Source of the DNA: Prevotellaceae bacterium
Lineage (GTDB): Bacteria > Bacteroidota > Bacteroidia > Bacteroidales > UBA932
DNA length: 32,124 bases
Direction: 5' to 3'
NCBI GenBank assembly: GCA_031274595.1
Contig: JAISPX010000087.1
Location: 1-32,124, forward strand
Shown here: positions 1,434 through 19,688 of the stretch, one piece after another
Numbering within the stretch: position 1 is the stretch's first letter
Layout: each line of letters begins with the position of its first letter
Made by a program: the position numbers and the translations under genes
Notes under the pieces: generated by a model
Seen by the model: only the letters and a program-made list of their open reading frames with translations
What the model was told of the DNA's origin: nothing
The model's database searches: none

Positions 1434-1450
1434 AAAAAATGTAATTACAT

Positions 1451-1921: not shown

Positions 1922-1923
1922 TT

Positions 1924-2106: not shown

Positions 2107-2132
2107 TATACATTTCGTTTAAGATTACAACA

Positions 2133-2292: not shown

Positions 2293-2322
2293 TTTGACCT
2301 TTTCAGGTCAAATCTTTTTTTG
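2293..2322 (+). terminator. Intrinsic terminator on plus strand with no annotated plus-strand gene upstream
   Basis: TTTGACCT-tttc-AGGTCAAA followed by TCTTTTTTTG. Confidence 0.7.
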
Positions 2323-2324
2323 TC

Positions 2325-2354
2325 AAAAAAAAAGCGCACAAATACATTTGTGCG
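2325..2354 (-). terminator. Intrinsic terminator, minus strand, likely end of phage-element operon
   Basis: Minus strand CGCACAAAT-gt-ATTTGTGCG followed by CTTTTTTTTT; downstream of the 2539 stop. Confidence 0.7.
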
Positions 2355-2538
2355 AATTGCGGAATACCTTTTTAAAGCGGCACGGAAAACAAAGTTCCGT
2401 GCGTTCTGCATCATACAGGAATAACATAATAACTGTACAGTTGGTTAATCTTCAAAACAAATTTAGCCATATCATCATAATTACTAAATTCTTCCGTCCT
2501 TACAAGGCGTTTGCCTGCATACAATAACACAATATACA

Positions 2539-2883
2539 TTATTTTGCCCCCCTGTCAACAACCTGTTTATTTGAAAAAACATAACAAACAGGCCAAAAAT
2601 CAAACTCGTCCAATTCTTCGGCTATATCCTCTTTCGGCTTTTGCACTTTTCTCGGCTGTCCCCAAAGCAGTAAAGCCTTTTCGCCCTTTTTCACAATCTT
2701 ACCCATCTCGTTCCACTGCCGCAAGGTATTCAATCTAAAATGCCCCTCGCTCTGGTAAATCTTCTTCAAACCCTCGTTAATAGTTTCAATCTGTCCTTCG
2801 TCAATTAACTTGCGTAACGGTTTGCTTAATCCTTTCAATTCTGCACGTTTCTCGTTTAATTTGCTTTCTTTAAAATTTTTCAT
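2539..2883 (-). CDS. ArdC N-terminal-like (ssDNA-binding-like) small phage protein
   Basis: HFRLNTLRQWNEMGKIVKKGEKALLLWGQPRK resembles the ArdC N-terminal pattern. Confidence 0.6.
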   Translation of the reverse strand: MKNFKESKLNEKRAELKGLSKPLRKLIDEGQIETINEGLKKIYQSEGHFRLNTLRQWNEMGKIVKKGEKALLLWGQPRKVQKPKEDIAEELDEFDFWPVCYVFSNKQVVDRGAK

Positions 2884-2975
2884 AACTTTGCCCTCTCGTA
2901 ATTAAATTTTACTCATAAAATTTGATTGAAAACAGGCGGGCGTCTGACCATAGTCCCGCCTGTTGTCATTTTCTC

Positions 2976-3407
2976 TCAAAATACAATTTCCGCTTCTATT
3001 TCTTCAACTTTCACTTTTATCTCGCTTCTCAGAAACTCAATAAACTTAAAAATCAAAGTAACATTTGAAATAGAAAAAAGGTCTTCGTTTCTGTAACCGT
3101 TTTTCATTCCCTGAAAAATGATTCTGGAATTTGAAGTTTCAAAAACTCCTGTTTTTTCTTCGCTCTTCAACTCTTTTTGCAGTTCCCGCAAACTTGCATC
3201 TACATGCAAAAACTTTTCCCGATTGTCAGCAAGTTTTTTCTTGTAGTTCAATTCCTGCAAGCGTTCTGCAAGTTCCTTCTGCAAATCTGTAATTGATTTT
3301 TTTTCAACCGATTTTTGTTCGGTTTTGTTTTCCGCCTGTGCGGAATTTTTTGTTTGTGCGCCTTGCGCCTGTGATGTAACATTTACATCTTTTTCATTTT
3401 TACTCAT
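2976..3407 (-). CDS. Hypothetical phage-element protein (charged, coiled-coil-like)
   Basis: Intact 143-aa ORF with its own consensus promoter 65 nt upstream. Confidence 0.7.
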   Translation of the reverse strand: MSKNEKDVNVTSQAQGAQTKNSAQAENKTEQKSVEKKSITDLQKELAERLQELNYKKKLADNREKFLHVDASLRELQKELKSEEKTGVFETSNSRIIFQGMKNGYRNEDLFSISNVTLIFKFIEFLRSEIKVKVEEIEAEIVF

Positions 3408-3471
3408 AATTTTAACTTTTTTTATTTAATTAATAAATTGTATCTCGATGTCTGACTACCTCAATACACTA

Positions 3472-3503
3472 CAAAGTTACAAAATACATTTCACACTACC
3501 AAA
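3472..3503 (-). promoter_or_regulatory. Bacteroidetes-type promoter for the 2976-3407 gene
   Basis: Minus strand TTTG (3500-3503) - N20 - TAacTTTG (3472-3479). Confidence 0.7.
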
Positions 3504-3643
3504 TTTATAATCAATTATTTGCACACGCTTAACAAAGTTTAACTATATGCAATTAACTAATTATCAATACAATACAAGGGAAATATTTTTAAATTCCCAT
3601 AATAAAAATCATAAAATATTGATATGATTTTATTTAAGAGTTC

Positions 3644-3670
3644 AAAAGGGAAATAAATTTCCCTTTTTTT
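3644..3670. terminator. Bidirectional terminator-like hairpin downstream of terL
   Basis: AAAAGGGAAAT-aa-ATTTCCCTTTT followed by TTT; A/T tracts on both sides. Confidence 0.65.
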
Positions 3671-3702
3671 GTCGAAAGACCCCGCACCGCCCTGAAATTT
3701 TT

Positions 3703-3917
3703 TGTAATTACATTTGATTTTTTTTGTACGGAATATGCTAACTATATTTTTTAGTTTCAGCCGCTCCGTTCAAAAACCAAAATTCCTATTTTTTGCGTTA
3801 GGGATTGCAGCGGCTACCCCACAGCGAAGCGAGGAGTAATAGCGTAAAGCCCGCCTGTACTCCGTTAAACAACAGACATAGAGTTTTGTAATTACAAGCG
3901 TAGCGATGTAATTACAT
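3703..3917. repeat. TGTAATTACA palindromes (3703-3712, 3887-3896, 3907-3916)
   Basis: Three identical 10-bp palindromes; the last two are spaced exactly 20 bp. A fourth copy lies at 1440-1449. Confidence 0.7.
3766..3875 (+). ncRNA. Candidate structured RNA (resembles a recurring Bacteroidetes intergenic motif, possibly Flavo-1-like)
   Basis: aattcctattttttgcgttagggattgcagcggctacc...gaGGAGTAatagcgtaaagcccgcctgTACTCC; resemblance is from memory and unverified. Confidence 0.4.
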
Positions 3918-4023
3918 ATCTCTATACCTATTTGTGCGTAACAATGTCATAATAACAAGCGAAGCGTAAAGTTAGATATGACTTTGTAAAGCATATAAAG
4001 TAAGGAGTACAGGAACGCCCAAA

Positions 4024-5643
4024 TTATTTAATTATTCCTGAACCTAAAATAAACTGTGTTGATTGTTGTGGATATAAATTCATACCTATAAGTAATGTAT
4101 CGAAAGCATCTGTACCATCTGTACGGTACTCTAATTTATCCTCTTCTGATTCTGCAAGTTTTTCGCCTGATTTATCCTTTGAAAAGCCATTGCTGTTAAC
4201 AACTACTCCTGTATGTCCTAATGCAAGCAGCAGGGCATCGTTATTATCTTTGTTGAATTGCGGAAATAAATACTTTTGACCTTTCAGGGCTTGGTCAATC
4301 ATAATGTATTTTTCACGATGTTTCAATGGGTTACCTATGTGTACGCGCTGAATAGTCCATCCATTTTTAAAAAATTGGTCGCAAATAACAGATGCGAAAT
4401 CATCATCATTTACAGCGTAATTACTTCCGAGAGCTGTGTTATCATAGTAATAAATTACTTCACGTGTTGGATGATAGATATAATATTCGCAGAAGTCATT
4501 AACAATCTCACGTAATTTGCGCTCATACTTCACATAGAAAGATTTAATAACTTTCATTTGGCTGCCTTGCTGTTGTGCCGCAACCAGCCAATTAATATTT
4601 GCGTTATAATCAAAAGCAATACATATAGGTTTGTTCGGGGCAATATCACCATCCTGACGGCAATCGGATTTTGCAATCTTTGATAAATTATATTCTAAAC
4701 TTTGTAAGTAGTTGTTATTAAAAGCAGTATAGGTATGTATATCTTCATTGTAGGAAGGATAAAAACCATCGAGTAAGCGAGTGATGCGCCTGCATAATAT
4801 TGAGGTTTGAAATACAAGCGGCGAAAGGTCGCGTTTCATTTGGCGGATATATTTTTCGCCCAGAATTTGAATGTTCTCTATTGTTGAAAATTCGCGATAA
4901 TAAGTAGCGATTGAACGGAATTCAGACAGTATTTGATTGTATTCACAAAGTACTCTATTGCGATGTTCGGTTTTAGGTTCTTGTTTAAGCCGCCAGATTT
5001 CGTACACTAATCCATGAATTGCATCAATCAGTTCGGTGTCCATGAATTCACGGTAACGGAAAAACCACGAGCCTTTTTTTGTTGTCGGCATATCTGAAAG
5101 TATAAGTAACCCATGATGCCACGGACAATTACCAAAATATTTTTTTATTGCTCCGTTTGCCGGCAGTGTTTCATCTTTCAGTTTTTCGTGGTCTATAAAT
5201 TTTGCTTCATCTATGGAAATATAATCAAGAGTTAATGAATTTGACGAACCTTTTACATCTTGAGAAATTATATGCTGAATTGCTCCATTATACCAACTTA
5301 TCACATAGTCATACCGCATAGGTTTGATTATTGGTTCGGCAAAGCCCATACTTTTTGATGGACGATGCCCGACTACATAATGAACATCGCGCACCCAACC
5401 CATTTCGCGCAAAGCCGCAAAAGTTGCCGGCAATGTTCTGGTTAATGCCTGTTGAAATGTAGCGGCGACAAATGCGCCTGCGCTTCGCGGCATGGCATGA
5501 ATATTGCGAAGCAAACGAGGCGCGGCAATTCCGTGCGATTTGCCAAACCTGCGCCCGGCAATAATCACTTCTGTATTTGCGCCTGTGTACATTGCCTCAA
5601 GTTGTGCATCGTTAAAATACAATAGTTTATTCGGCTCGCTCAT
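4024..5643 (-). CDS. terL: Phage terminase large subunit
   Basis: Walker A AGRRFGKSHG, Walker B YISIDEAKF, C-terminal nuclease-like acidic motifs (IAFDYNANINW, TDGTDAFDTLL). Confidence 0.9.
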   Translation of the reverse strand: MSEPNKLLYFNDAQLEAMYTGANTEVIIAGRRFGKSHGIAAPRLLRNIHAMPRSAGAFVAATFQQALTRTLPATFAALREMGWVRDVHYVVGHRPSKSMGFAEPIIKPMRYDYVISWYNGAIQHIISQDVKGSSNSLTLDYISIDEAKFIDHEKLKDETLPANGAIKKYFGNCPWHHGLLILSDMPTTKKGSWFFRYREFMDTELIDAIHGLVYEIWRLKQEPKTEHRNRVLCEYNQILSEFRSIATYYREFSTIENIQILGEKYIRQMKRDLSPLVFQTSILCRRITRLLDGFYPSYNEDIHTYTAFNNNYLQSLEYNLSKIAKSDCRQDGDIAPNKPICIAFDYNANINWLVAAQQQGSQMKVIKSFYVKYERKLREIVNDFCEYYIYHPTREVIYYYDNTALGSNYAVNDDDFASVICDQFFKNGWTIQRVHIGNPLKHREKYIMIDQALKGQKYLFPQFNKDNNDALLLALGHTGVVVNSNGFSKDKSGEKLAESEEDKLEYRTDGTDAFDTLLIGMNLYPQQSTQFILGSGIIK

Positions 5644-6205
5644 CGTCTATTTCGTATTCAATATTTTGTATTTCTATTTCGCCGATATATTTCTTTTTTA
5701 AGGTCTCAATTTTTTCGCGTAGATTTTCAACAGGTTTAAGTCCGATTGTCGTTGGATCGGAACTTGGTTCAAATGTTGGCGGAACAATTTCGTCGAACGG
5801 TAATTGTTCGCCATCTTCAATATCGAGTTTATTATTTTTTATAAATGCCATTGCTATTTTTGACAGCGCTGTTGCCTCTTTGGTTTGTCCATCTATTGCC
5901 ATTTTCGCCGCTTTTTCAAGCAAATAATTCACGCGATGCCTGTGCCATTCTTTACCTGCATTACGCACATTTCCAAGCAATAATTTTATATTGATTATAT
6001 CGCGATAAGCCTGCGATTTTTCTATCTGATAATTATTAATCAGATAATCGCGAATTTCAGCATCGCTTGATAAAGGATTTTCGAGCCAGTAAGTAAATGC
6101 AGCTCGATAACGTATTAACATGGCTTTTTCATGTTCCGATACTGTTGCCGGAATTGCATCAAACAGCATTATGTTCATTTTATCAATGATATTTTGTTTA
6201 GCCAT
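5627..6205 (-). CDS. Terminase small subunit-like protein
   Basis: Directly upstream of and overlapping terL; MAKQNIIDKMNIML...; the ORF track starts further upstream at 6277. Confidence 0.6.
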   Translation of the reverse strand: MAKQNIIDKMNIMLFDAIPATVSEHEKAMLIRYRAAFTYWLENPLSSDAEIRDYLINNYQIEKSQAYRDIINIKLLLGNVRNAGKEWHRHRVNYLLEKAAKMAIDGQTKEATALSKIAMAFIKNNKLDIEDGEQLPFDEIVPPTFEPSSDPTTIGLKPVENLREKIETLKKKYIGEIEIQNIEYEIDDERAE

Positions 6206-6470
6206 GTTCCGATTGAGTTTGTTTTTTAAGAAAATCGAGCATGGCAGTTTCGGCTTGCGGCGAGCCTTTTTGCGCAAACTGTAAAGTTTGCTTGCGCAAT
6301 TCTATTTGGGTTTTAAGTTTACCTTTCCAATACGCTTTTGCCGATTCGGATTTGTTCGCTTTTATTTCTCTGCGAAAATCTTGTATATCCTTATCAAGCA
6401 TCATTGCAATTTCGTCAACGGTAAAAAACAATGAGGCGTATTCTTCTATTAGTTCAATGTCTGATTGCAT
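6198..6470 (-). CDS. Small HTH-like protein in terminase operon
   Basis: 90 aa, IELIEEYASLFFTVDEIAMMLDKDIQDF HTH-like; translationally coupled to neighbours. Confidence 0.6.
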   Translation of the reverse strand: MQSDIELIEEYASLFFTVDEIAMMLDKDIQDFRREIKANKSESAKAYWKGKLKTQIELRKQTLQFAQKGSPQAETAMLDFLKKQTQSEHG

Positions 6471-6888
6471 TTTGTTTCATATTGTTTAAATCATTAATAA
6501 CAGTATCAATAAGATTTTTTTCATAAGAAATAAATCCACATTCATATCTCAGGTTCATGGTAGCGTTTGCGCTCATAACCGCAACACCTGACACATCAGG
6601 GCTTTCAAGCAATACAAGTTTTGCGTGCGTATTACAAAGATAAATTTCGTCTGCAACCTGTTCAAGAAATAATAAATTACTTCTGTGTCGTTTTGCGATG
6701 GTAAAATCAAGCATCAATGTAAGATGTTTGATTTTGCTCCGTTCTCGAAGCAATTTGCGTGCAAAGGCTTCAGCCACAGCAAAAGAGCAGATAGTTAATT
6801 TATCTGCTCTTTCAACTTTACTGATTAAAGTGTTAACTATCGTCCATGCATCAGTCTTTCGGAGAAATATTTTCTGTTGTAAATCCAA
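6454..6888 (-). CDS. Phospholipase D-like domain protein (single HKD motif)
   Basis: NTHAKLVLLESPDVSGVAVMSANATMNLRYECGFI matches the HxK...SxN layout of the PLD superfamily. Confidence 0.65.
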   Translation of the reverse strand: MDLQQKIFLRKTDAWTIVNTLISKVERADKLTICSFAVAEAFARKLLRERSKIKHLTLMLDFTIAKRHRSNLLFLEQVADEIYLCNTHAKLVLLESPDVSGVAVMSANATMNLRYECGFISYEKNLIDTVINDLNNMKQNAIRH

Positions 6889-7582
6889 GTTCCTTTAATT
6901 TCGCTATTGTTTCATCATCGAAATTTTGTTGATTTGCAAGCATGGCATTAATACGCTCCTGTATTTTTTCACGTTTTTTATCGTCGATTTTTTCAGGTTC
7001 GGCGAGCGAGCGTGAAATATAGGTCCTAATAGCGTTCACCTGTTGCGGAGTTAAGTCGGCATTTTCACCTTCGAGAGTAATATCAATATTATCATCTTCG
7101 GACGCTTTACCTTCGGCAACCCATTTGTCAATAATATCCCAGTTTTTAGCGATAGCATCATCGAGTTCGGCTATTTGTTTGCGTAATTTTTGCCTTTTGG
7201 TTTTGCCTTTTACTGCTTTCATCTCGGCATGAGCGCCACGTAAAATCTTGTATTTTTCCGTATTTTTATCATACAGAATTTTCAAGTTATCAGGCAAATC
7301 TTCATATTTTATTTTGCCTTCAATGTCAATGATTGCACGTTCCGCCTTTGGCTGTTGATCTATTTTGGGAGGATGTTTTTCATCGAGTACGATTGTCTGT
7401 TTTTTGACAATCGATTTCGATCCGCTTGCTATCTTATCAAGTTCATAACGGAGTTTGCTCATTACTACCTTTCTATTAAGATAGTGCAATATCGCTTTGT
7501 TTTTTGAATATTTGGAAAGAAGTGAAATACCGGCGTAATAGTCCGGTGTTTCACTTTCAAGCCATTTTTTTATATCATTCAT
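6851..7582 (-). CDS. Hypothetical phage structural-module protein
   Basis: Intact 243-aa ORF between capsid and terminase genes. Confidence 0.65.
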   Translation of the reverse strand: MNDIKKWLESETPDYYAGISLLSKYSKNKAILHYLNRKVVMSKLRYELDKIASGSKSIVKKQTIVLDEKHPPKIDQQPKAERAIIDIEGKIKYEDLPDNLKILYDKNTEKYKILRGAHAEMKAVKGKTKRQKLRKQIAELDDAIAKNWDIIDKWVAEGKASEDDNIDITLEGENADLTPQQVNAIRTYISRSLAEPEKIDDKKREKIQERINAMLANQQNFDDETIAKLKELGFTTENISPKD

Positions 7583-7591
7583 AGAACCAAA

Positions 7592-8179
7592 TTAAATACC
7601 GCCATCGTCATCTGTAGGAGTGAATACTCCTGTTTCGCAATCAAGCGAACCATCAGCCAATAACAATTCGCCTTTGTATCCCGGCAGCGGAGTTACGTCC
7701 GGAGCGGTAATTTCAATCGTTATACCTTTTGCGCTTCCGGGAGCATCGCCAGTATCGCCGGTAATGGTTGCTTCAACATCGTAATCATCACTGCCGATAA
7801 CAACAAATCTGTTAAGCGGCAACGGAATGATGAAAATGCACGATGCGTTTATTGTTGCCTTAACAAGATTTTTTGCTTCGTCTGTTATGTCGGGATAAGA
7901 GAGCGTACATTTGTTGTTAAACATTTTGCAATCCTTTTCGCCGATACCTTCAAACGTTGCCTTGCCTTTACCTTGTGTAGTATAGACCGAAAACCAGTGT
8001 TTATCCTCTTTAAGAACAAAATCACCTGCGTAGTTCACAGCTGCGGTTATTGTTACTGCATCTTCGTTTTGAATGGTTGGAAATGCCGCTATGTGCGACT
8101 TGGGTATCCAATAACCTATTCGTTTGATGCCCGAAGGATTTACTTTACCTTCAGGCCAGTTTAATGAGTCGAATATCAT
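7592..8179 (-). CDS. Hypothetical phage structural protein
   Basis: 195 aa directly downstream of the capsid gene; GIKRIGYWIPKSHIAAFPTIQ..., beta-rich composition. Confidence 0.65.
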   Translation of the reverse strand: MIFDSLNWPEGKVNPSGIKRIGYWIPKSHIAAFPTIQNEDAVTITAAVNYAGDFVLKEDKHWFSVYTTQGKGKATFEGIGEKDCKMFNNKCTLSYPDITDEAKNLVKATINASCIFIIPLPLNRFVVIGSDDYDVEATITGDTGDAPGSAKGITIEITAPDVTPLPGYKGELLLADGSLDCETGVFTPTDDDGGI

Positions 8180-8209
8180 ATTTTATTTTTTTTATAATTC
8201 AACATTTAA

Positions 8210-9193
8210 TTAACCCACATCTCCGCCGGTATTTTCATCTTCAATAGCGAATTTTATACCGCACATATATTCCGGCATAAGAGTTTCAAATCCAACACCA
8301 AAATGTGTTTTCATGAACAACTGAACAACTTTTGGATTGTCGGGACGGCGTATTTCTACCTGTTCCTTATCGCTTTCGCGGTCGAAACCTATGTTCATGT
8401 TTTCCTTTACAGTAATAAACATGTAATCCTGTCCTTCCATATTGTCCAATTCTACAAATTGCAATTTACCGCGCGAACTGTGCAATTCTTTTTGTTGATA
8501 ACCTGCGTTCCAAGGAACGTGTCCAAATTCAATCTGATACCATTTTTCGTATAAATCCACGATAGTCGGCGGACAATACAAATTAAGTTTTTTCCCGCGT
8601 TTGAGCATTCTGTTCAGCGAACGGAAGGTATCCGTCAAAGCATCTCCTACATTATCGGCAGATATTGGAGTGGCGCTAATGTCGATGTAGTTGCCCTTTG
8701 CGACAGATGCTTTTCCTGCGGTTACCGCATCTGCAAAAAGCGTGCTGAAACCATTAAATAAATCTGTCGTTGTGTTTCCTGCTGCATCACGAACAGCGAT
8801 AAACAGATTGTCGTATAATGCTTCGCCTGCTTTCAATGCAACTTCCAAAGCAATACGTTTTGCAATAGCCATTTGGTCGGGTTTTGTTGCTGTTGGTTCT
8901 GTATAAAGCGAACCTAACACAGCATTAGGATCAAATTCCTTCACCATATCGGCAAGGTAAACTTCCCATTCCTCCGGAATGATAGAAAAGTTGCCATCGG
9001 CATCTTTTGCTGTTCTGTAAGGACGAAATTGAGCGGCAACAGTGAGAATACCGCCAATGATTTTACCTTGTAAACCGCTTCTTATTGTGAAGTAAGGTTT
9101 TACTTCCTCAAAAGCGACAACAGGCGCGGTCAAAATTTCCTTTTTGTATTTAATTCCCGCCTGTATCAGAGCATCGTTAATTGTTAAAGCCAT
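8210..9193 (-). CDS. Phage major capsid protein
   Basis: 327 aa immediately after the S49 protease; LNRMLKRGKKLNLYCPPTIVDLYEKWYQ, IGFDRESDKEQVEIRRPDNPKVVQLFMKTHFGVGFETLMPEYMCG typical of capsid proteins. Confidence 0.8.
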   Translation of the reverse strand: MALTINDALIQAGIKYKKEILTAPVVAFEEVKPYFTIRSGLQGKIIGGILTVAAQFRPYRTAKDADGNFSIIPEEWEVYLADMVKEFDPNAVLGSLYTEPTATKPDQMAIAKRIALEVALKAGEALYDNLFIAVRDAAGNTTTDLFNGFSTLFADAVTAGKASVAKGNYIDISATPISADNVGDALTDTFRSLNRMLKRGKKLNLYCPPTIVDLYEKWYQIEFGHVPWNAGYQQKELHSSRGKLQFVELDNMEGQDYMFITVKENMNIGFDRESDKEQVEIRRPDNPKVVQLFMKTHFGVGFETLMPEYMCGIKFAIEDENTGGDVG

Positions 9194-10402
9194 TTATTTT
9201 CTTTTTAAAGTATTTAATACATCATCGTAAATACTAACGGTTGGTGTTGAATTACCGTCGGTTTCCTTATTAACAGAAGCCGTGTTGTCTCCCGGCTTCT
9301 TTTCCATTTCTGCAATTTTTTGTTGCAGAGTGGCAATAGTAGCATCGCGTTCGGCGAGCGTAGCATTAACTTGCTGCAAATTTGTATTTGCCGTGGCAAG
9401 TTCGGTTTGCGCCCTGTTACCTGCTTCAAGGGCTTCGTTAATCGCTTCGAGTTGTTCCTCGTTAAACGATGTGTTTCCATCTTCGCAAGCAAGTTCGGTA
9501 ACTGCAAGTACAGCAAGCAAAGCGGCAATGTTTAATTGTCTTTCCATATTTATAGGATTATGATTTTTATTTTTATCGTGAAGTTGCCAAACAGCATCAA
9601 CTGCTGTTTGAAAATCTCCGATAGCGTCGATAAGTATTCCAACAACCTCCGAAGCAAAAAATGTTTTACCTTTCAAATGTTCGTCCTTTGCGTTCGGGCG
9701 GTTGGTTTTAATATCATTAATGAATTGCACGCAGGCAGGATTAAGTATTCTTTCTTTAACAAGTTTAAAGTCGCCTGTAAGAGCGGCTTCATACTCATCA
9801 TTTTTTTCTTCGCTTCCATCTGCATAAATACGCACTGATGTGTATCCGTCAGGCATTTTATTGAATTTCGGAAATCCTCCGAGTTCAATCATTACGCCTA
9901 TACATCCTACGTTATCGGTTTCGCGTGATGCTATTATTTGCTGGCAATAAGAACCAATATACATTGCAGCCGAACACATCAGACCATCAACCCAAGCAAC
10001 AACAGGTTTTTTGCATTTTTGAATTGCATCGGTCAATTCAGGAACGGCTGCCGTTTGACCGCCTCCGGATTCAAAAACTAAAATATGCCCTATAACAGAT
10101 TTATTTTTTTCGGCTGTTAGAAGTCGTTCTGCCATTAGGCGAGTTCCTATTGTTCCCGATTCGGTTGTATTTTTCATTAGTATGCCGCGAACAGGCTGCA
10201 CAAAAACACATTCTTCGTTTTCATTTACAACGTTAACGCCACTTCTATTAACACAAAAAGGCATATACTTTTCATCAGGATTCTCTCTTTCAAATTGTAA
10301 TCCGTTAAAAACGCCACGCAATACAGGTGCATAAATTTGCATCGTTATTGCATTAATAGCCCAACTTGATTCTATCAGTTCCTTTATAAATGAAAATTGC
10401 AT
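9194..10402 (-). CDS. S49/ClpP-like prohead protease with C-terminal coiled-coil (scaffold-like) domain
   Basis: HILVFESGGGQ..., KKPVVAWVDGLMCSAAMYIGSYCQQIIAS, DNVGCIGVM SppA-type motifs; C-terminal heptad-like region. Confidence 0.85.
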   Translation of the reverse strand: MQFSFIKELIESSWAINAITMQIYAPVLRGVFNGLQFERENPDEKYMPFCVNRSGVNVVNENEECVFVQPVRGILMKNTTESGTIGTRLMAERLLTAEKNKSVIGHILVFESGGGQTAAVPELTDAIQKCKKPVVAWVDGLMCSAAMYIGSYCQQIIASRETDNVGCIGVMIELGGFPKFNKMPDGYTSVRIYADGSEEKNDEYEAALTGDFKLVKERILNPACVQFINDIKTNRPNAKDEHLKGKTFFASEVVGILIDAIGDFQTAVDAVWQLHDKNKNHNPINMERQLNIAALLAVLAVTELACEDGNTSFNEEQLEAINEALEAGNRAQTELATANTNLQQVNATLAERDATIATLQQKIAEMEKKPGDNTASVNKETDGNSTPTVSIYDDVLNTLKRK

Positions 10403-10461
10403 ATTGCGTTTTGTATTAAAGTTGCAATATTACACATATATATACGTGAACAAAAGGACTA

Positions 10462-10842
10462 TTAAATGTTTGGCGTTATTCCGTCAGGGCTTTTGTATGT
10501 TATATTCACAGTATAGCCGTTTACTTTAAGGCTTCCTATTGTTCGCGAAAATAAGAATACAGGTATATAATCTTCGTTACCGATTATATACTGTTTATCG
10601 TTCATGTCGGTAACGCGGTATTGATAATACCTGTCTTTCAAGTGTCGTAAAATTTTATCGCCGGCTTGGTTACTGTTGCGGATTTCGCATTTGACAGTTA
10701 CCGTACTTATTTTTCCTGCCGGATCTTCGCTCCATTCTTCCGACAGCGTTGCCGAAAGGCTCACGTTTTTCAACTGCGCCCAAGCCGATTCGTCTGAACC
10801 AAGCGGACGGTATTCGATTTTTTTTATTCCTAATTTTGTCAT
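10462..10842 (-). CDS. Hypothetical phage protein
   Basis: Intact 126-aa ORF, in operon order. Confidence 0.65.
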   Translation of the reverse strand: MTKLGIKKIEYRPLGSDESAWAQLKNVSLSATLSEEWSEDPAGKISTVTVKCEIRNSNQAGDKILRHLKDRYYQYRVTDMNDKQYIIGNEDYIPVFLFSRTIGSLKVNGYTVNITYKSPDGITPNI

Positions 10843-10861
10843 TTTAATATGTTTTTATTGA

Positions 10862-11347
10862 TTAAAGTAAAAGGGACATCACAGGGACAAATCCTGACGA
10901 CTTTTTTTTATTTTTTTTCTGCCGATACCTGTAATAAGATTTCTTCAGAGATTCGTAATTTATATTTTCAAATGAAATATTGTAAGAGTAGCAGTAATCA
11001 TAAATTGCCTCTTTGATTTCTTTATTCATTCTCTGTAAAATATTGTCTAAATGAATGTACATGTGAGTTAAGAATATTTCATTAAGCATTATTGATATAT
11101 ATTTTTCTCCTTTTGGAGAGATGTAAAAATTATATTCCGTGTTTTTGTTTTCGTAATTTGGAAGTTCAAAAACAAATATATCTTTGCCTTCCGGTATAAT
11201 AACATTATGATTTTTCGGCGGCAAAGTCAGCCATGGCTTGATAAGTTTGCCGAAAGTATCGCCTGCCGAAACGTTATGTGTTCCGTGCAGGTAAGCACAC
11301 ACAACAAATTCCTGAAGCGCCGGTTTAAGATGTATGTAAGTTGTCAT
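10862..11347 (-). CDS. Hypothetical phage protein
   Basis: Intact 161-aa ORF between primase/iteron region and head genes. Confidence 0.65.
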   Translation of the reverse strand: MTTYIHLKPALQEFVVCAYLHGTHNVSAGDTFGKLIKPWLTLPPKNHNVIIPEGKDIFVFELPNYENKNTEYNFYISPKGEKYISIMLNEIFLTHMYIHLDNILQRMNKEIKEAIYDYCYSYNISFENINYESLKKSYYRYRQKKNKKKSSGFVPVMSLLL

Positions 11348-11419
11348 TTTTTATTCAAAATTAAAGTCTAATTTTTCGCGTTGAAAGGATTTTTTTTTAT
11401 TTTTTTGAAACGGCTTTTT

Positions 11420-11682
11420 TGCGTTCCAACGTTCCAACGTTCCAACAAAAAAATATAATTTATTGAAAATCAGATAAAAATAATTTTCGTTTAAAGTTGG
11501 AACAAAATAATTGCTGTTCCAACTAAAAAATAAGTAAAAAAATGGTGTTCCAACAAAACACAAGGTGTTCCAACAAGTACCAACAAACGGCTTTATATAT
11601 ATATTATTAATTTTCAATATATTATTATAGATAAACCTTGCTGAAAAGCGTTTTTGTTGGAACGTTGGAACGTTGGAACGCA
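11420..11682. repeat. Iteron-like array of GTTCCAAC / GTTGGAAC with 32-bp terminal inverted repeat; candidate replication origin
   Basis: Perfect copies at 11423, 11431, 11439, 11516, 11547, 11567 (+) and 11496, 11656, 11664, 11672 (-); degenerate GTACCAAC at 11577; outer arms TGCGTTCCAACGTTCCAACGTTCCAACAAAAA are perfect inverted copies. Confidence 0.85.
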
Positions 11683-11724
11683 TTTTTGCCGTAAATTTTT
11701 TTATCTGTTTATTTCCTTTTTTTA

Positions 11725-14700
11725 TCATTGGGGGGTAACAGGGGGAAAAATAGTTTCTTCAGTGTCATCATCTTTGTCAAGATTGATATTCGTCAATTCT
11801 TTTAACAATAAATAATCTAATGCTATTGCGCTTGTATTTTGCTGGTTTATGCGCTCTGTTTTTCTTACATAGTATTCCATTGCGCCCTTGTCTTCAACGT
11901 ATTCTTTCCATGAAAATCTTGTGCTTTTTACATTACCAATATATGCGGGATGGTCTTTCAGATACATTAATAAATTCTGCACTTTGAGAGTTTCGCTGCC
12001 TCTTATCTTTTGATACAGCGGATGAATTAGTCCAATTCTCAGGAACAAAACCCTTGTTTCTTTTGCAAGAATTTGTTCTACTGTCGTTTTTCTATCTATT
12101 TGTAAAACAAGTTTGTTTTGCCATTCAATTTTAAAATCTCGCCCGTATATTAGTCCATCATGCTGCTTATTTAGCAACACTTCAAGCGTTTCAAAGAATA
12201 CGCTTAATCTGTTAGTGCTGCTTATAGTTTCGCTTTGCGAAATAACTTTTGCTCGCGCTATATTGTAAAAATGTTTGTATGTAAACGGCAATCTAAGTTG
12301 TGGCACATATTGTTCCCATAGTTTGCAAATAGATAAAAATAATGATACAGTATTGAGTAACCGAGTTTGATGTATGTCGCCGTTTGCAGACAAATCTTGT
12401 TTCAATTCTTTATATACATTATTAAGCGTGTCGGCAAAATGTGCTTTAACCGTTTCTCTCTGTTTTAATATTTGAAGCAACACGCCGCTTAACCCATTCT
12501 TTTGTCTTGCTTTGAGATTATCAAATATTTCGCGTTCATGTTCTGTCCAGTCGTCTTTTTTAGGAACGTGCAATAAAATACAACGGTTGGCAAGCGAACC
12601 ATCGTCCCGCTCCGGCGCTTCCTGTCCAAGTAAAATTACAGCGCAATTTATTTTACTTATATCTAAATCTTTGCTTGTGGCATCTTTCTTTTTCTGCTTG
12701 CCTTCACCGTCATATACTGCTGCTTTAAGCCCTTGAAATTTTATATCGGAAATTTGATAATCGTTGTACTCTTCAAAAACCATAGCAACATCGCGGTAAC
12801 GTTCCAAACTGCTGAAAAATGCAGCATCTGTTCCTGAATTTAAGTTGAATAGTGGAGCATCGGGATGCATGAATATAGAACGTATGCTTACCGCAATTTG
12901 TGTTTTTCCTGACTCGGTAGGACCAATAAAAAACGGTGCGGTAAATAGCCTGTTTATAGAAAAAATATCACTGCGAAATGCAGACAATAACGCATAAAGC
13001 ACAGCCCAATATCCGTTATCGTTTTGTTTGTAAACTTCAACCATCAGTTGTACCCACGTGGCAAAATCGGTATCGTTATTTTCGCGAAATATAAACCACC
13101 TGTCGTTTCCATATTTGTCATTACTGCTGCGTAAATCTGAATATATTTTACTAAATGCCGGAGAATAATAAGTTTTATTGCCATGTTGCACAAGTCCGAG
13201 TTCATCGGTATATTTAATTTCTCCATCTGAATAAATTGCATTTGCAAAGGCGTAAAAATCTTCATCTTGCTGCCCGAACTCATTAATTTCCCAACACTTT
13301 GGAAATTGATTTGCAATACTTGCCAGTATTGCTTCATGATGGCTTGCTTTTCCTCTTGTAAAAACATTGCCACCCTCGTTGAACAATACTTTTTTAAATT
13401 GTCCGAAATCAACTAATTTTTCGGATACAAATTCGGTGTAAAAAGTCATTCCTGACTCAGCATTATTGATTCGGACAATACGCTTGTTTCGTGCTGCTTC
13501 TGTATCGAAAACGTGAAAAAGCGGTTCTATATAAAAATTCCCTACCATCTGCAAGCCGCCTTCTTGGGTGCGAAATACATAAAATATTTTTCTGCCTTTT
13601 TCATCTTGTGCAGGGAAATATCCATGTCGGTAGAAAAATTCTTTATCAACATATTCCGGAAGATTATTAATATCAAAATCGTAACGTTTACCGCCAACGT
13701 TGCTTGCTTCGCGTTTGAGTACACTTTTGGTTTTCTTTGCCGAAATGTGCGGCTTCAGTATTTTATTTAATGCTGCAGATGTAAGATTTAATCCGTCGCA
13801 AAATTTATTAAAACAAACTGTAAGCGTTGTTTCATCAAGTTTTGCAAGAATATTGCAACATTGGTCAATAAGGCGTTTGTGTATAATTGCATCTCCACTG
13901 TTTTCAGAAATAATAAAACTACAATACGATGAATATGCCGATAAAAAATTTTCAGGAACAGTATTTTCTTCGTCAAATGAAGATTTCTTTTGAACAATTA
14001 TATCAAACTTAAAATCTAACATCCAAATACAAATGTTTGATATTTGTGTATTTGCGCCCAAGTTATCAAGGAAATCAGTATCGTTGTTTACAAATTCAAT
14101 TCGCTGAGTAAGTCCGTTTAGTTCCTGTACATTGGCGTAAAGAATATTGCCTGAACTTAGTATTGTATTTTCTTTCCCGTTGGCGTGATATGTAACAAGC
14201 ATTTCCATTGTGTCAACAATGTAGCATTTGTTTTTTGACACGATTGATTCTTTGGCAAGTTCCAAACCAATCCAGCCATCATCTTTTTGCTCGATTGGCT
14301 TTACTGCCGATTTTTTGACAGCATCAATAATGCTTTTTTTATTGATGTCAAACATTTTTGCAACATTATTGATGTACATTTCGCGTGTTACGGATTCGGG
14401 AATAAGCGCAATGGTACGTTCAAGTTCTTTGACGGCTGCTGCTAACTGTATAGGATCATTTTGTCCGGCTTGCTTCATTACTTCGTATTTAAACGAAACA
14501 AAATCTTTCTTTTCTGACAGTAATTTTTTTACCAAATCTGCACCAACCGACAGCCCGAAACTGTCGGGATCATGTCCTGATGGAAGCGAAACAATGCGCA
14601 CATTCATACCTTCGGACAATAATAGTTCTGCGTTGCGGAATGTCGCTTTTGTTCCGGCAGAATCGCCATCGTAGCACATTAAAACATTTGATGTAAATCG

Positions 14701-15576
14701 GCGAATAAGCGCAATTTGTTCTTTTGTCAACGCTGTTCCGCAGGCGGCAACTGAGTTTGTAAACCCAAGTTCGTGAAATCGCATTACATCAAAGTTGCCT
14801 TCAAGCAAAATACATTCATCCTCTTTTATTATTGATTTTTTTGCAAGATGAATACCGTACAAACATTTGCCTTTTGAAAATAATTCGGAATCTCTGCTGT
14901 TAAGATATTTTACTTGCTCATTTCCTGAAATTGATCTTCCTGTAAAACCCACAACATTACCTATAATGTCGCAGATAGGAAATATAATCCTGTTGCGAAA
15001 ATAATCGTAAGTTCCTTTATCGCCTTCGCCCATGAGCGAGGCATCTGCTAAAATATCCGATTTGAAGCCGGCTTTTTGAGCCGACTCGCTTAACTTATGC
15101 CAGTCATCTGATGCATAACCAAGCCTGAACATTTGTATCGTTGAGGGTTTAAATTTTCTTTGAAGTAAATAAGTATGATAAGGTTTGTCGTGGTTTTCCC
15201 AAAAAAATATTTCCGCAAATCGTGTTACAACTTTGAGGCTTTCGCGCCGGGCATATTTCGCCTGTTCTTCGGCTGATGGCTTATAATCATCCTCAATTAC
15301 TATACTAGCCCGAACAGCAAGTAATTTTACCGCTTCAGGAAAAGATACCTGTTCCTGTTCCTGAATAAACTTAATCACATTACCGGCACAGCCACAACCA
15401 AAACATTTAAAAATCCCTTTCGCCGGCGAAACAACAAAAGATGCAGTTTTTTCATCATGAAAAGGACAACAACCAACATAATTAGCGCCTTGTTTCCTTA
15501 ATTTTACATAGTCGCCTACAATGTCTGCAATATTTATCTTTGATAATATTTTATCTATTGTTTCCTGTTGTATCAT
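11725..15576 (-). CDS. DnaG-type primase (CHC2 zinc finger + TOPRIM) fused to a C-terminal P-loop ATPase/helicase-like domain
   Basis: CPFHDEKTASFVVSPAKGIFKCFGCGCAGN zinc finger; CILLEGNFDVMRFHELGFTNSVAACGTALT and MCYDGDSAGTKA TOPRIM; GPTESGKTQIAVSI Walker A and MVFEEYND acidic motif. Confidence 0.88.
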   Translation of the reverse strand: MIQQETIDKILSKINIADIVGDYVKLRKQGANYVGCCPFHDEKTASFVVSPAKGIFKCFGCGCAGNVIKFIQEQEQVSFPEAVKLLAVRASIVIEDDYKPSAEEQAKYARRESLKVVTRFAEIFFWENHDKPYHTYLLQRKFKPSTIQMFRLGYASDDWHKLSESAQKAGFKSDILADASLMGEGDKGTYDYFRNRIIFPICDIIGNVVGFTGRSISGNEQVKYLNSRDSELFSKGKCLYGIHLAKKSIIKEDECILLEGNFDVMRFHELGFTNSVAACGTALTKEQIALIRRFTSNVLMCYDGDSAGTKATFRNAELLLSEGMNVRIVSLPSGHDPDSFGLSVGADLVKKLLSEKKDFVSFKYEVMKQAGQNDPIQLAAAVKELERTIALIPESVTREMYINNVAKMFDINKKSIIDAVKKSAVKPIEQKDDGWIGLELAKESIVSKNKCYIVDTMEMLVTYHANGKENTILSSGNILYANVQELNGLTQRIEFVNNDTDFLDNLGANTQISNICIWMLDFKFDIIVQKKSSFDEENTVPENFLSAYSSYCSFIISENSGDAIIHKRLIDQCCNILAKLDETTLTVCFNKFCDGLNLTSAALNKILKPHISAKKTKSVLKREASNVGGKRYDFDINNLPEYVDKEFFYRHGYFPAQDEKGRKIFYVFRTQEGGLQMVGNFYIEPLFHVFDTEAARNKRIVRINNAESGMTFYTEFVSEKLVDFGQFKKVLFNEGGNVFTRGKASHHEAILASIANQFPKCWEINEFGQQDEDFYAFANAIYSDGEIKYTDELGLVQHGNKTYYSPAFSKIYSDLRSSNDKYGNDRWFIFRENNDTDFATWVQLMVEVYKQNDNGYWAVLYALLSAFRSDIFSINRLFTAPFFIGPTESGKTQIAVSIRSIFMHPDAPLFNLNSGTDAAFFSSLERYRDVAMVFEEYNDYQISDIKFQGLKAAVYDGEGKQKKKDATSKDLDISKINCAVILLGQEAPERDDGSLANRCILLHVPKKDDWTEHEREIFDNLKARQKNGLSGVLLQILKQRETVKAHFADTLNNVYKELKQDLSANGDIHQTRLLNTVSLFLSICKLWEQYVPQLRLPFTYKHFYNIARAKVISQSETISSTNRLSVFFETLEVLLNKQHDGLIYGRDFKIEWQNKLVLQIDRKTTVEQILAKETRVLFLRIGLIHPLYQKIRGSETLKVQNLLMYLKDHPAYIGNVKSTRFSWKEYVEDKGAMEYYVRKTERINQQNTSAIALDYLLLKELTNINLDKDDDTEETIFPPVTPQ

Positions 15577-15845
15577 TCCTCTTCATGCATTGAAAAAACA
15601 GTAAAATCGCCACAATTGGTTCTTATGAACAAACTTGTTTGTTTGAACCACGGTTCTTCTTTTTTCGAGTGATATGACAATCCTATCCTGTATTGTTTTT
15701 TGTCATTACCTAAAATCTCATGAAGAGCAAAATATATGCGTTTCAAATCATAATTACCCGTATCAGCTAATTCTATTGCTTTTTCTATCATTTTTTTCTG
15801 CGTTGCAAGCACTGTTTTTCTGTGCTGCTCGTAAGTTATTTTCAT
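15573..15845 (-). CDS. Hypothetical phage early protein
   Basis: 90-aa ORF overlapping the primase start by 4 nt. Confidence 0.65.
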   Translation of the reverse strand: MKITYEQHRKTVLATQKKMIEKAIELADTGNYDLKRIYFALHEILGNDKKQYRIGLSYHSKKEEPWFKQTSLFIRTNCGDFTVFSMHEEE

Positions 15846-15847
15846 AA

Positions 15848-16426
15848 TTATAATTTTTCAATTAATTTAAAAACTTCGTCTGTCAGTACACTTCGGCAGA
15901 TGTCGGCTGTTTCTTGTTGGTTTTTTGTTTTAGCATAAGCAGCATAAGCAGCAGCAGCAGCAGCATTAGCATTAGCATAAGCATTAGCAGCAGCAGCAGC
16001 AGCATAAGCATTAGCATAAGCATTAGCAGCAGCAGCAGCAGCATAAGCAGCATTAGCAGCAGCATCAGCATAAGCAGCATAAGCAGCATAAGCAGCAGCA
16101 GCAGCAGCATTAGCATAAGCAGCATAAGCAGCATAAGCAGCATCAGCAAACTCATTTAATTTATCTCTGCTGATTTTGCCATCGGCATAATCCAGAGCGG
16201 CATCAATGGCTGCCGTGCAGCGCTCATCTTTCATTAAGTGCCTTACAGTAGCGCACATCGCTTTTGCTCGTGTTAAAATCCTGTCGTCAACTCCTAATTT
16301 TGCCGCTATCCACAGCATCCAATCACCTCTTGGGCAGTCGTTCCACGCTTGCTCAAAACTTTCTTTTTCTTTGTAATAATTCAAACCTTCGCTGCACGGA
16401 TTGAATTTTGAAATGTCTATTTTCAT
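15848..16426 (-). CDS. Imm-5-like/putative immunity-type protein with Ala-Tyr/Asn/Asp repeat
   Basis: CPRGDWMLWIAAKLG...TVRHLMKDERCTAAIDAALDYADGKISRDKL followed by (A)nY/N/D repeats and NQQETADICRSVL tail. Confidence 0.65.
   Translation of the reverse strand: MKIDISKFNPCSEGLNYYKEKESFEQAWNDCPRGDWMLWIAAKLGVDDRILTRAKAMCATVRHLMKDERCTAAIDAALDYADGKISRDKLNEFADAAYAAYAAYANAAAAAAYAAYAAYADAAANAAYAAAAAANAYANAYAAAAAANAYANANAAAAAAYAAYAKTKNQQETADICRSVLTDEVFKLIEKL
15937..16149. repeat. Trinucleotide-based repeat (minus-strand codons GCT and NAT) inside CDS
   Basis: agcagcataagcagcattagcagcatcagc...; nearly pure GCT with TAT/AAT/GAT interspersed. Confidence 0.9.
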
Positions 16427-16646
16427 GATTTTTTATTTGATTTTTATTTGATAAATTAGTAAATTTATATAGAATATGTACATTAATTATATTATTTATA
16501 GGTAATTACAAACATATTCCTTATTTGATTGTTATTTTATTTGAAAATATGCCCGAACAGTGCGCTGTCTCAGGTAGCAGCGCACATTGTCGGACACCTG
16601 ATACAATGGTTTTCCAGAGCCTGTATTTCGTTTATTTTCGTAATTT

Positions 16647-16862
16647 TTAATTTTCATTATTGAGTATCTGTTCAGGATATTCTTCGCCATAAATGCGCAA
16701 ATAGTGGAACACTTCGTCAAACTGCACATCAGAGATATAGTGTTCTGCCGCTGTAACCTGCCACCAGACAGGTTCGCCATACTTTGACCACGCTCCTGCG
16801 TATTCTACTTGCGCATCATCAGGTACGTTGCGCAGGATTTTTTTCAATTCTTTTACCGTCAT
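16647..16862 (-). CDS. Hypothetical phage early protein
   Basis: 71 aa MTVKELKKILRNVPDDAQVEYAG...; overlaps the next ORF by ATGA-style coupling. Confidence 0.65.
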   Translation of the reverse strand: MTVKELKKILRNVPDDAQVEYAGAWSKYGEPVWWQVTAAEHYISDVQFDEVFHYLRIYGEEYPEQILNNEN

Positions 16863-17062
16863 TTTACCGCCTCATTCAACATCTCTATTATTGCCATTAT
16901 TTCACGTTTATTGACGTCAATATAAACTTCATCAGGAAAGTCTTCCATATGTACTTCCAACTGTATCTGGCTGCAATTTCTTTGCACTCGGAACTGAAAC
17001 GTTCCCCTTGCGTCTTCTGACTGTAATATCAATTGATATTGGGTATCTGCTCTTTTCATCAC
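16859..17062 (-). CDS. Hypothetical phage early protein
   Basis: 67 aa, coupled to neighbours. Confidence 0.55.
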   Translation of the reverse strand: MMKRADTQYQLILQSEDARGTFQFRVQRNCSQIQLEVHMEDFPDEVYIDVNKREIMAIIEMLNEAVK

Positions 17063-17319
17063 TCAAATAATTTTAGTTGCCGTTCAAAAGTTTCTGCCGT
17101 GAATGTTACGTTCAGCGTATGGCACAATCGTTTCAGTTCGTCGATTGTGATTGAGATTTCGCCGCGCACGAGTTTTGCCCAGCGCCGGCAGTTGATTCCC
17201 GTTGCGATATAAAACCGCTTTGTCGGTTTAAAATTCTCGTGCGAACCCTGTATGCTGTCAAGCAAATTAAACAGAGCATCGCGCGAAACGATTGCGTTGT
17301 TATTTTCTTCTTTTTTCAT
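17059..17319 (-). CDS. HTH (XRE-like) small protein
   Basis: FYIATGINCRRWAKLVRGEISITIDELKRLCHTLNVTF helix-turn-helix pattern. Confidence 0.6.
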   Translation of the reverse strand: MKKEENNNAIVSRDALFNLLDSIQGSHENFKPTKRFYIATGINCRRWAKLVRGEISITIDELKRLCHTLNVTFTAETFERQLKLFE

Positions 17320-17322
17320 AAT

Positions 17323-17502
17323 TTATTTTTTTGTATGTTTATAAATTTCAATAAAATACTGGCATGCGCCTTTTTCTTCATCAAACGTAAATGTCGCCCA
17401 CGATTGATTAAATTCGTTTGTCGGAGTCATGTGCCGCTTGCAGTCGTAGCAAAGCGGACAATCTTCATTGTTGCATTTTGTTATGTCGTTTATATTAATC
17501 AT
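17323..17502 (-). CDS. Small Cys-rich protein, 59 aa (below ORF-track cutoff)
   Basis: Reverse complement reads MININD ITKCNNEDCPLCYDCKRHMTPTNEFNQSWATFTFDEEKGACQYFIEIYKHTKK*; fills an otherwise empty gap in the operon. Confidence 0.6.
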   Translation of the reverse strand: MININDITKCNNEDCPLCYDCKRHMTPTNEFNQSWATFTFDEEKGACQYFIEIYKHTKK

Positions 17503-17695
17503 AAATCATCCAATGATCCAGTTCAAGTAACGTTTTAAAAAGTCGGTCGCGCTCCGCTTTTGTTTCAAATTTTTGCATAGTCGCCCATTCCTGGTGGATT
17601 TTGTTTTTTATTTTTATTCGCGGTGTCGGATAGTCATCGCAACGGATAATTGTAAATCCGGCAGCGATTACTTTTTTTTGTGAATTTACGTCCAT
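17495..17695 (-). CDS. Hypothetical phage early protein
   Basis: 66 aa, in operon. Confidence 0.55.
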   Translation of the reverse strand: MDVNSQKKVIAAGFTIIRCDDYPTPRIKIKNKIHQEWATMQKFETKAERDRLFKTLLELDHWMIYD

Positions 17696-17697
17696 TG

Positions 17698-17958
17698 TTA
17701 TTCTTCCTCCTTGCCTAATTTTTCACCGCAATACGGGCAATAAAGCGGAATAAAACTAATTTCCCATTTTCTTACCCGATTGCCAATTTTATACTTTCCT
17801 AATACCGGATTTTTCAAAAAAACACTTATTCCTTTTTCATCATTAAACAGGAACATTGTATTTTGAAAACTAACAGGTTCTTCGACTTCTGCTCCCGGAT
17901 TGTCGTTAAGCATTTTTTCCGTGAGCAATTTTTCTAATCTTTCAATACAATCACACAT
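17698..17958 (-). CDS. Hypothetical protein with CPYCG zinc-knuckle
   Basis: 86 aa; N-terminal MCDC and C-terminal YCPYCGEKLG. Confidence 0.6.
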   Translation of the reverse strand: MCDCIERLEKLLTEKMLNDNPGAEVEEPVSFQNTMFLFNDEKGISVFLKNPVLGKYKIGNRVRKWEISFIPLYCPYCGEKLGKEEE

Positions 17959-17962
17959 AATT

Positions 17963-18397
17963 TTATTTTTTTTTGATTTCGTAAAGCGCTTCGATAATAT
18001 CGTCTATTGACGCTATATTGTTCAATCCCAGCAAATGTTTTATAACGCCCAGTCGCGCGGCTTCATCAGTGTACTCACATATATATTCGGCTATTTCCGA
18101 ATAATCCAAATTCAGTTGCCATAAAACATCGAATGTTGACGCTGTTTCTTTCAATCCAAGCAAAATTTTTACGATGTCCAATAGATTGTCTTCATCAATT
18201 CGCTCATGCATGTATTCGGCTAATTCAGTATCGTCCAATTCCAGTTTATCTAAAACGTCGTCATTTGACGACATTTCATCCAATCCCAGCAAAATTTTTA
18301 CCATGTCCAATCGCTCGGCAGAAGTTCGCGTATGCATATATTCGACTATTTCCGAATCTTCCATACTATTTAACAGTTCAATTTTATCTTTTTCCAT
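17963..18397 (-). CDS. Protein of three tandem ~43-aa helical repeats
   Basis: EDSEIVEYMH..MVKILLGLDEMSSNDDVLDKLEL / DDTELAEYMH..IVKILLGLKETASTFDVLWQLNL / DYSEIAEYIC..VIKHLLGLNNIASIDDIIEALYE. Confidence 0.7.
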   Translation of the reverse strand: MEKDKIELLNSMEDSEIVEYMHTRTSAERLDMVKILLGLDEMSSNDDVLDKLELDDTELAEYMHERIDEDNLLDIVKILLGLKETASTFDVLWQLNLDYSEIAEYICEYTDEAARLGVIKHLLGLNNIASIDDIIEALYEIKKK

Positions 18398-18409
18398 AAT
18401 TTTATTTTT

Positions 18410-18559
18410 TTATTGTTTATTTTCTCTTATTTTTATTAATACTTCAAAATTGCTGATAAGTAATTTTACTCTATTAGTAACGACTTTGCTGTCGTTTTCC
18501 GGCATCTGCATCAATGCCGTCAGTATGATTTGCAAGTCTAATAATGATAGATTTTCCAT
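18410..18559 (-). CDS. Small 49-aa hypothetical protein (below ORF-track cutoff)
   Basis: MENLSLLDLQIILTALMQMPENDSKVVTNRVKLLISNFEVLIKIRENKQ*; fits the gap in the early operon. Confidence 0.45.
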   Translation of the reverse strand: MENLSLLDLQIILTALMQMPENDSKVVTNRVKLLISNFEVLIKIRENKQ

Positions 18560-18562
18560 GAT

Positions 18563-18772
18563 TTAATTCTCATTTAAAATTTCATTTTCTTTAATTCCAA
18601 GACCTTCGGCAATAATTTTCAAAGCCAAAGTTTTAGTTAGGTCGCCGTTTACGGGATTTTCACGCAAATTGCGATACAAAGTAGCTTCGCTCCACTCCAT
18701 TCGGTAGAGCAATTCACGACGTAGCGATTGGTTTTCGCGTATCATTTCGATAATTTCATTTTTTACTTTCAT
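18563..18772 (-). CDS. Small DNA-binding (Cro/early regulator-like) protein, first gene of leftward operon
   Basis: 69 aa; RRELLYRMEWSEATLYRNLRENPVNGDLTKTLALKIIAEGLGI HTH pattern; divergent from XRE gene. Confidence 0.65.
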   Translation of the reverse strand: MKVKNEIIEMIRENQSLRRELLYRMEWSEATLYRNLRENPVNGDLTKTLALKIIAEGLGIKENEILNEN

Positions 18773-18796: not shown

Positions 18797-18827
18797 CAAA
18801 GATAAGTCTTTTATCGACTAATGCAAA
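18797..18827 (-). promoter_or_regulatory. Leftward early promoter of the phage element
   Basis: Minus strand TTTG (18824-18827) - N19 - TAtcTTTG (18797-18804). Confidence 0.75.
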
Positions 18828-18849
18828 ATTTTTTAGTCAAAAAACGACT
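18805..18849. promoter_or_regulatory. Two repressor-type operators AGTC-N7-GACT (18805-18819 and 18835-18849)
   Basis: agtcttttatcgact and agtcaaaaaacgact; centres 30 bp apart in the divergent intergenic region. Confidence 0.75.
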
Positions 18850-18904
18850 TATTTTATAAACAAATAGAATAACAATTTGAGTATTAATTAAATAATTTTG
18901 CAAA

Positions 18905-19243
18905 ATGAAAGTTAATGTAAAAGAAATTAGGGAAAAACTTGGTTTTAGCCAAGAAATGATGGCAGAAAAAATGAATATTAGTCAGTCTGCTTATGCGAGA
19001 TTTGAGTTGCAAAAAACAAAAATAGACTTAGCGCGTCTTACTGTTTTTGCAAACTCGGTCGGTATGAATTTTATAGATGTTTTAACGTTTCCTGAACGTT
19101 ACATCAATGTTCGTGATATTGGTAAAGAAATAGGAAGCAATTCACCAGAAATTTTTATACACATAAAAATTAAAGAAAAAAAACGAACTGATATTATGAA
19201 GTTGCTTTTTGGAGATAATAACATAGATATATTAAATGAATAA
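18905..19243 (+). CDS. XRE-family transcriptional regulator (candidate phage repressor)
   Basis: VKEIREKLGFSQEMMAEKMNISQSAYARFELQKTKIDLARLTVFANSVGM HTH; divergent from the early operon. Confidence 0.85.
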   Translation: MKVNVKEIREKLGFSQEMMAEKMNISQSAYARFELQKTKIDLARLTVFANSVGMNFIDVLTFPERYINVRDIGKEIGSNSPEIFIHIKIKEKKRTDIMKLLFGDNNIDILNE

Positions 19244-19251: not shown

Positions 19252-19563
19252 ATGGCATATACTATTATATATTACAGCCTTTTTCCTTATGATTTTTATA
19301 GGGAAAAAAAACAGATAGCATGGTTAAGCGTTTCGGAAGAATTTATAAAGAAATTACAATTAAAATATCCTAAAATAATATTAAAAGAAATAAGAGTCCC
19401 ATTTAAAGATGCTTATGTAATATATGATAAAAATATATCTGATATTCCATATGAATCTTTGATACAAATGTTATATGCTTGGGCAGGAGGCAATGATGGA
19501 ATAAAAAAAGTTGTAAATAAAGATGAATTTGAAAAAGAACTTGAGCGATTAAGTAATTATTAA
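19252..19563 (+). CDS. Hypothetical protein co-transcribed with repressor
   Basis: 103 aa ORF starting 8 nt after the XRE stop. Confidence 0.7.
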   Translation: MAYTIIYYSLFPYDFYREKKQIAWLSVSEEFIKKLQLKYPKIILKEIRVPFKDAYVIYDKNISDIPYESLIQMLYAWAGGNDGIKKVVNKDEFEKELERLSNY

Positions 19564-19688
19564 AAAGTTAAATACAATCAAATACAATAAATACAATTAT
19601 AAATAAAAGAAGATAAATGCGTAGCAGGGGAGGGGAAATTCTTTTCACCCCGACTTTTTTAACAATAAACTGTTTAAGTGGATTTACG

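Follow-up and report, generated by a model that had tools for sequence, protein, structure and literature searches.

Prophage organization and gene content

The window, that is, the whole stretch of 32,124 nucleotides analysed here, comprises one entire contig (JAISPX010000087.1) of the 2.46-Mb draft genome of a Prevotellaceae bacterium (GCA_031274595.1), whose promoters and relatives mark it as Bacteroidota. The left part of the window is a prophage that is read leftwards from 18.8 kb. The leftward genes (4024-18772, minus strand) include small early genes, a primase of the DnaG type that is extended by a long additional C-terminal part (11725-15576), a head protease of the S49 type (9194-10402), a protein (8210-9193) that is termed capsid-like because of its place beside the protease, and a terminase (4024-5643). 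The first gene of this operon (18563-18772, minus strand) encodes a 69-aa HTH-like protein that is conserved in the related loci described below. Divergent from the lytic operon is the gene of a 112-aa XRE-family (HTH_3) repressor (18905-19243, plus strand), which scores above the Pfam cut-off, and just after it lies the gene of a 103-aa protein with no family match (19252-19563, plus strand); these two rightward-pointing genes lie at the right end of the prophage and are followed by the host gene rsmF. Pfam gives HTH matches only for the repressor, in which an S24-type self-cleavage domain is not seen, and AlphaFold without an alignment returned an unusable model (pLDDT 47). The C-terminal motif of the repressor (..KEKK..IMKLLFGDNNIDILNE) is common to the distant Bacteroidota XRE regulators L005-L008 (..KKEKKEQVLKLVFGENNLEILNK) and probably serves as a small tail for dimerisation or interaction.

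In positions 1-4000, left of the terminase and before unrelated genes begin, no gene for a portal or a tail was recognised, part of this stretch having been searched against families; this could mean that the prophage is truncated, defective or satellite-like. A 49-aa ORF (MENLSLLDLQIILTALMQMPEND..; 18410-18559) comes after the 69-aa gene and has a 61-aa counterpart in a related prophage of genome G083, while a 192-aa protein (15848-16426) contains an Ala/Tyr/Asn-rich low-complexity repeat (AAYAAYANAAAAAAYAAY..) and matches a PHROG of unassigned function. In addition, the segment 1508-2106 resembles a HicB/HicA toxin-antitoxin pair, as judged by the sequences only, and neither RNA families nor tRNA genes were found in the window. 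At the right boundary, sister-species homologs of rsmF align only from about residue 9-24, mostly 24 (stretch concerned, 19617-19688), and the ATG at 19617 is probably not the true start of rsmF; a comparison with the corresponding upstream DNA of sister species did not locate the end of the prophage.

Promoters and paired dyads between the divergent genes

Bacteroidota primary-sigma promoters carry a TTTG box about 19-21 bp before TAnnTTTG (PMC7366714), and the leftward lytic or early promoter (18797-18827, minus strand) matches this pattern as TTTG-N19-TATCTTTG, with the -33 box read as CAAA at 18824-18827, the -7 box as CAAAGATA at 18797-18804, and a 19-bp spacer at 18805-18823. Two dyads of the form AGTC-N7-GACT occupy this region, and on rechecking their sequences and coordinates proved exact to the base, in full agreement with the sequence-only reading. 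The core of the first spans 18805-18819 (AGTCTTTTATCGACT; centre 18812) and that of the second 18835-18849 (AGTCAAAAAACGACT; centre 18842), so that the centres are 30 bp apart, or about 2.9 turns. All four half-sites (TAAGTC/TTAGTC in the first dyad, TTAGTC/TAAGTC in the second) fit T(A/T)AGTC, as had been claimed, and within one dyad the centres of the AGTC cores are separated by 11 bp, or about one helical turn, which is the spacing expected for HTH_3 dimers.

With their flanks included, the dyads define predicted operator 1, TAAGTC-TTTTATC-GACTAA (18803-18821), and predicted operator 2, TTAGTC-AAAAAAC-GACTTA (18833-18851). The placement originally described for both was likewise borne out: the core of operator 1 falls within the spacer of the leftward promoter, the outermost 2 bp of the full operator touching the -7 box, and the core of operator 2 starts 7 bp beyond the -33 box on its upstream side. 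Each operator is nearly the inverted copy of the other, and the four half-sites therefore form one symmetric cluster centred at about 18827, at the edge of the -33 box, in which the inner half-sites alone make a perfect GACTAA-N11-TTAGTC dyad (18816-18838). A third exact AGTC-N7-GACT in the window, at 746-760, has a longer symmetry (AGTCGT-N3-ACGACT); being 18 kb away from the switch and fitting T(A/T)AGTC on one side only, it was set aside as probably unrelated.

On the rightward side, a candidate -7 box of the repressor gene, TAATTTTG (18893-18900, plus strand), lies 5 bp before the ATG, and a TTTG -33 box is absent at 17-21 bp from it. The dyads are located about 40-90 bp away from this box, in the promoter of the opposite operon. 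The description of the locus as a complete phage switch was therefore too strong, because the repressor's promoter lacks a properly spaced -33 box and nothing shows autoregulation.

Rarity of the dyads

The extended motif TWAGTCN7GACTWA occurs at three sites in the 2.46-Mb genome, two of which are the dyads described here; the third sits inside an unrelated coding gene and was not retained as an operator. The 132-bp intergenic region was subjected to 5000 dinucleotide shuffles: a repeated identical dyad with 4-bp arms of any composition and the same gap arose in 29% of shuffles, AT-only repeats being common, a pair of dyads with 6-bp arms (at most one mismatch) arose in 8%, and a repeated identical dyad with at least two G/C per arm arose in none. 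The in-spacer dyad of the window is not significant by itself, since one of equal strength appeared in 22% of spacer shuffles (P 0.22); significance comes from the dyad pair together with the four homologous loci described below.

Dyad placement and repressor identity in related prophages

Relatives were gathered by homology to the 69-aa protein, a sampling that selects for no dyad. Strong homologs define four loci, namely the window and loci in genomes G083 (L025/L027), G102 (L028/L040) and G051 (L029/L041); in two of the four, the contig begins at the switch or close to it. Between the window and the other three, the 69-aa protein is 68-81% identical over residues 1-47 and 68-82% identical over its HTH-like stretch, and in every locus a single TTTG-N19/20-TAnnTTTG promoter is directed towards the 69-aa gene, with an additional match in the opposite orientation in L029. 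The G102 prophage belongs to the same phage group, its capsid being 76%, its protease 59% and two more proteins 68% and 48% identical, and its head genes follow the same 69-aa gene.

The divergent HTH repressors, of 112 aa in the window, 108 in G083, 240 in G102 and 134 in G051, differ from locus to locus and are unrelated or very distant, the window protein matching that of L025 at 24% at best (blastp E 0.02) and those of L028 and L029 sharing 28%. Each locus nevertheless has a dyad within the promoter spacer, centred 8 bp upstream of the -7 box in the window (TAAGTC-N7-GACTAA; P 0.22), 6 bp in L025 (TGTAAATA-N3-TATTTACA; P 0.06), 8 bp in L028 (TAGGGAA-N-TTCCCTA; P 0.001) and 7 bp in L029 (TACATA-N5-TATGTA; P 0.09), where each P derives from shuffling the spacer only and the combined P is 0.00066 (Fisher, four loci). 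In a composition-weighted scan, the in-spacer dyad is the strongest intergenic dyad of L025, L028 and L029, and in the window the highest score goes to the dyad made by the inner half-sites of the two operators, which themselves share second place. An extra half-site is present 20 bp upstream in L025 and 22 bp upstream in L029, where the window has a full second site at 30 bp and L028 has none. The dyad of the window was not found in the other three loci, and across the four the operator sequence co-varies with the repressor. The conservation of the dyads in related prophages, which had been suggested as a check, thus extends to their placement, 6-8 bp upstream of the -7 box, but not to their sequence.

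Beyond these four loci, the distant relative L023 has a divergent HTH gene, a small gene and a dyad (TTTAGAA-ACA-TTCTAAA, about 6351-6367) that lies nearer the HTH gene and outside any promoter spacer, which, like the small number of loci, counts against the interpretation given below. When relatives of the 69-aa protein were sought across the order, a single distant locus (L038) was recovered, in which no clear promoter was seen, and no 69-aa relative was confirmed in viral contigs. Only distant XRE relatives were found among viral contigs, annotated phages, genome contigs and 200 genomes of the family, and those examined included no clear case divergent from a 69-aa-type gene. Four viral contigs with capsid relatives showed no switch in the parts examined and no detectable 69-aa relative in their records.

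Boundaries of a probably exchanged segment

Between the window and the G083 prophage (L025), DNA homology (81%) covers the 69-aa gene together with its leader and ends at 18800, inside the -7 box. It starts again at 19176, among the final 22 codons of the XRE gene, and extends through the 103-aa gene (74%). The intervening segment (18801-19175), which holds the spacer, the operators and most of the repressor gene, is non-homologous, and it is read as an exchanged immunity cassette because homology stops in the -7 box and resumes in the last codons of the repressor. The 103-aa protein is kept in G083 (67% identical) despite the different repressor. Furthermore, the part of G083 that matches the 3' end of the XRE gene consists of frameshifted debris similar to the end of the window-type gene, and it outscores all 1000 shuffles. 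The most economical interpretation is that a window-type repressor gene was formerly present in the G083 lineage and was replaced, together with its operator, by another, a direction of replacement that we infer.

Interpretation and alternative explanations

The two dyads are most probably operators of the divergent 112-aa XRE repressor, because related prophages change repressor and dyad together and keep the place of the dyad, and occlusion of the leftward lytic promoter is proposed because operator 1 sits in its spacer. On this model, RNA polymerase would be kept off the promoter in the lysogen by a repressor dimer that occupies operator 1 between the -33 and -7 boxes. Binding of another dimer to operator 2, at a distance of 30 bp and immediately upstream of the -33 box, would reinforce the block, perhaps cooperatively, and both the 69-aa gene and the early genes that follow it would be silenced. 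The 30-bp spacing makes cooperative binding plausible, as do the additional half-sites that two of the other three loci (L025 and L029) carry 20-22 bp upstream. Operator and repressor would together constitute a specificity unit, or immunity cassette, that related prophages exchange while the dyad centre stays 6-8 bp upstream of the -7 box. This proposal draws on the sequence, the promoter match, the rarity of the dyads, their conserved placement with changed sequence and the cassette boundaries, from which we infer repressor binding, occlusion, cooperativity and immunity.

The sequence-only reading had predicted direct occlusion by the XRE protein and had named the 69-aa regulator as a second possible player; dyad placement and co-variation with the repressor favour the former, and the latter loses ground, as the 69-aa protein is conserved while the dyads differ. 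A Cro-like role, in which this protein would be the main or joint dyad binder and would shut its own promoter or compete with XRE, is suggested by the classical cro position of its gene, first in the controlled operon, and by the HTH-like stretch in its sequence (ELLYRMEWSEATLYRNLREN). It is improbable all the same, for that stretch is conserved across loci whose dyads share no sequence, and the gene does not co-vary with the operators; the protein has no family match in Pfam, PHROGs or NCBIfam, and otherwise only a weak HipB hit (E 0.4). The 69-aa protein is thus unlikely to read these operators and might instead have regulatory targets elsewhere, in the phage or in the host. AlphaFold without an alignment predicts it as helical with no resolved HTH.

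Two further explanations appear still less probable. That the XRE and 103-aa genes form a toxin-antitoxin-like pair, the dyads being only autoregulatory sites, would suit their adjacency (8 bp apart on the same strand) and the weak NCBIfam matches of the XRE protein to antitoxin HTH models, all far below cut-off, but G083 keeps the 103-aa gene with another repressor and an extra ORF between them, and the dyads lie in the opposite operon's promoter, well away from the XRE -7 box. The equally improbable view that the dyads are palindromes arisen by chance in an AT-rich intergenic region would be compatible with the frequency of any-arm repeats in the shuffles and with the spacer P of the window, yet it accounts poorly for the absence of G/C-containing repeats from all 5000 shuffles, for the concentration of two of the three genomic copies at this locus, and for a placement common to four loci with different dyad sequences.

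Returning to the XRE repressor as the operator-binding protein, a more specific and more tentative extension can be formulated, which we regard as possible but somewhat less likely than its converse: a plug-in immunity cassette with a fixed joint. As one exchange boundary falls in the lytic -7 box, each incoming repressor would bring its own operator placed 6-8 bp upstream, while the conserved 69-aa HTH-like protein would not be a Cro for these operators and would have another early job.

Comparison with known systems and significance

Hardly any descriptions seem to exist of repressor operators in temperate phages of Bacteroidota, and none was found in the open-access literature that was searched. 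If true, the present reading would provide defined operators for a Bacteroidota promoter type, make superinfection immunity groups predictable from sequence, and offer a case, open to testing, in which repressor and operator are exchanged while their geometry is conserved. The proposed mode of action would be that of a textbook phage switch, and heteroimmunity by cassette exchange is already known.

Passages of PMC12135933 describe RepC of the Bacteroides hankyphage as a CI-like master repressor whose silencing turns on most phage genes; the repC gene lies at one prophage end, as does the repressor gene of the window, the hankyphage is transposable, and those passages give no operator for RepC. 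In the window, no transposase of the Mu type stood out among the genes. For Cluster A mycobacteriophages, passages of PMC6550527 state that repressor and operator specificity jointly define homo- and heteroimmunity, and passages of PMC9283540 that the repressors also bind many asymmetric stoperators across the genome, whereas the window has two symmetric sites only.

Close parallels are also found in the lambdoid immunity regions (lambda, 434 and P22, with CI/Cro and operators within PR/PL), which likewise combine a divergent HTH repressor beside an early or lytic operon with repeated, two-fold symmetric operators overlapping the early promoter. In lambdoid phages, the specificity cassette is exchanged between relatives (heteroimmunity). 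Unlike these systems, which have three operators per control region, the window has two exact sites, no Cro that tracks the operator and, in place of CI, a 112-aa repressor without a visible self-cleavage domain, and its promoter is of the Bacteroidota type, with -33 and -7 boxes.
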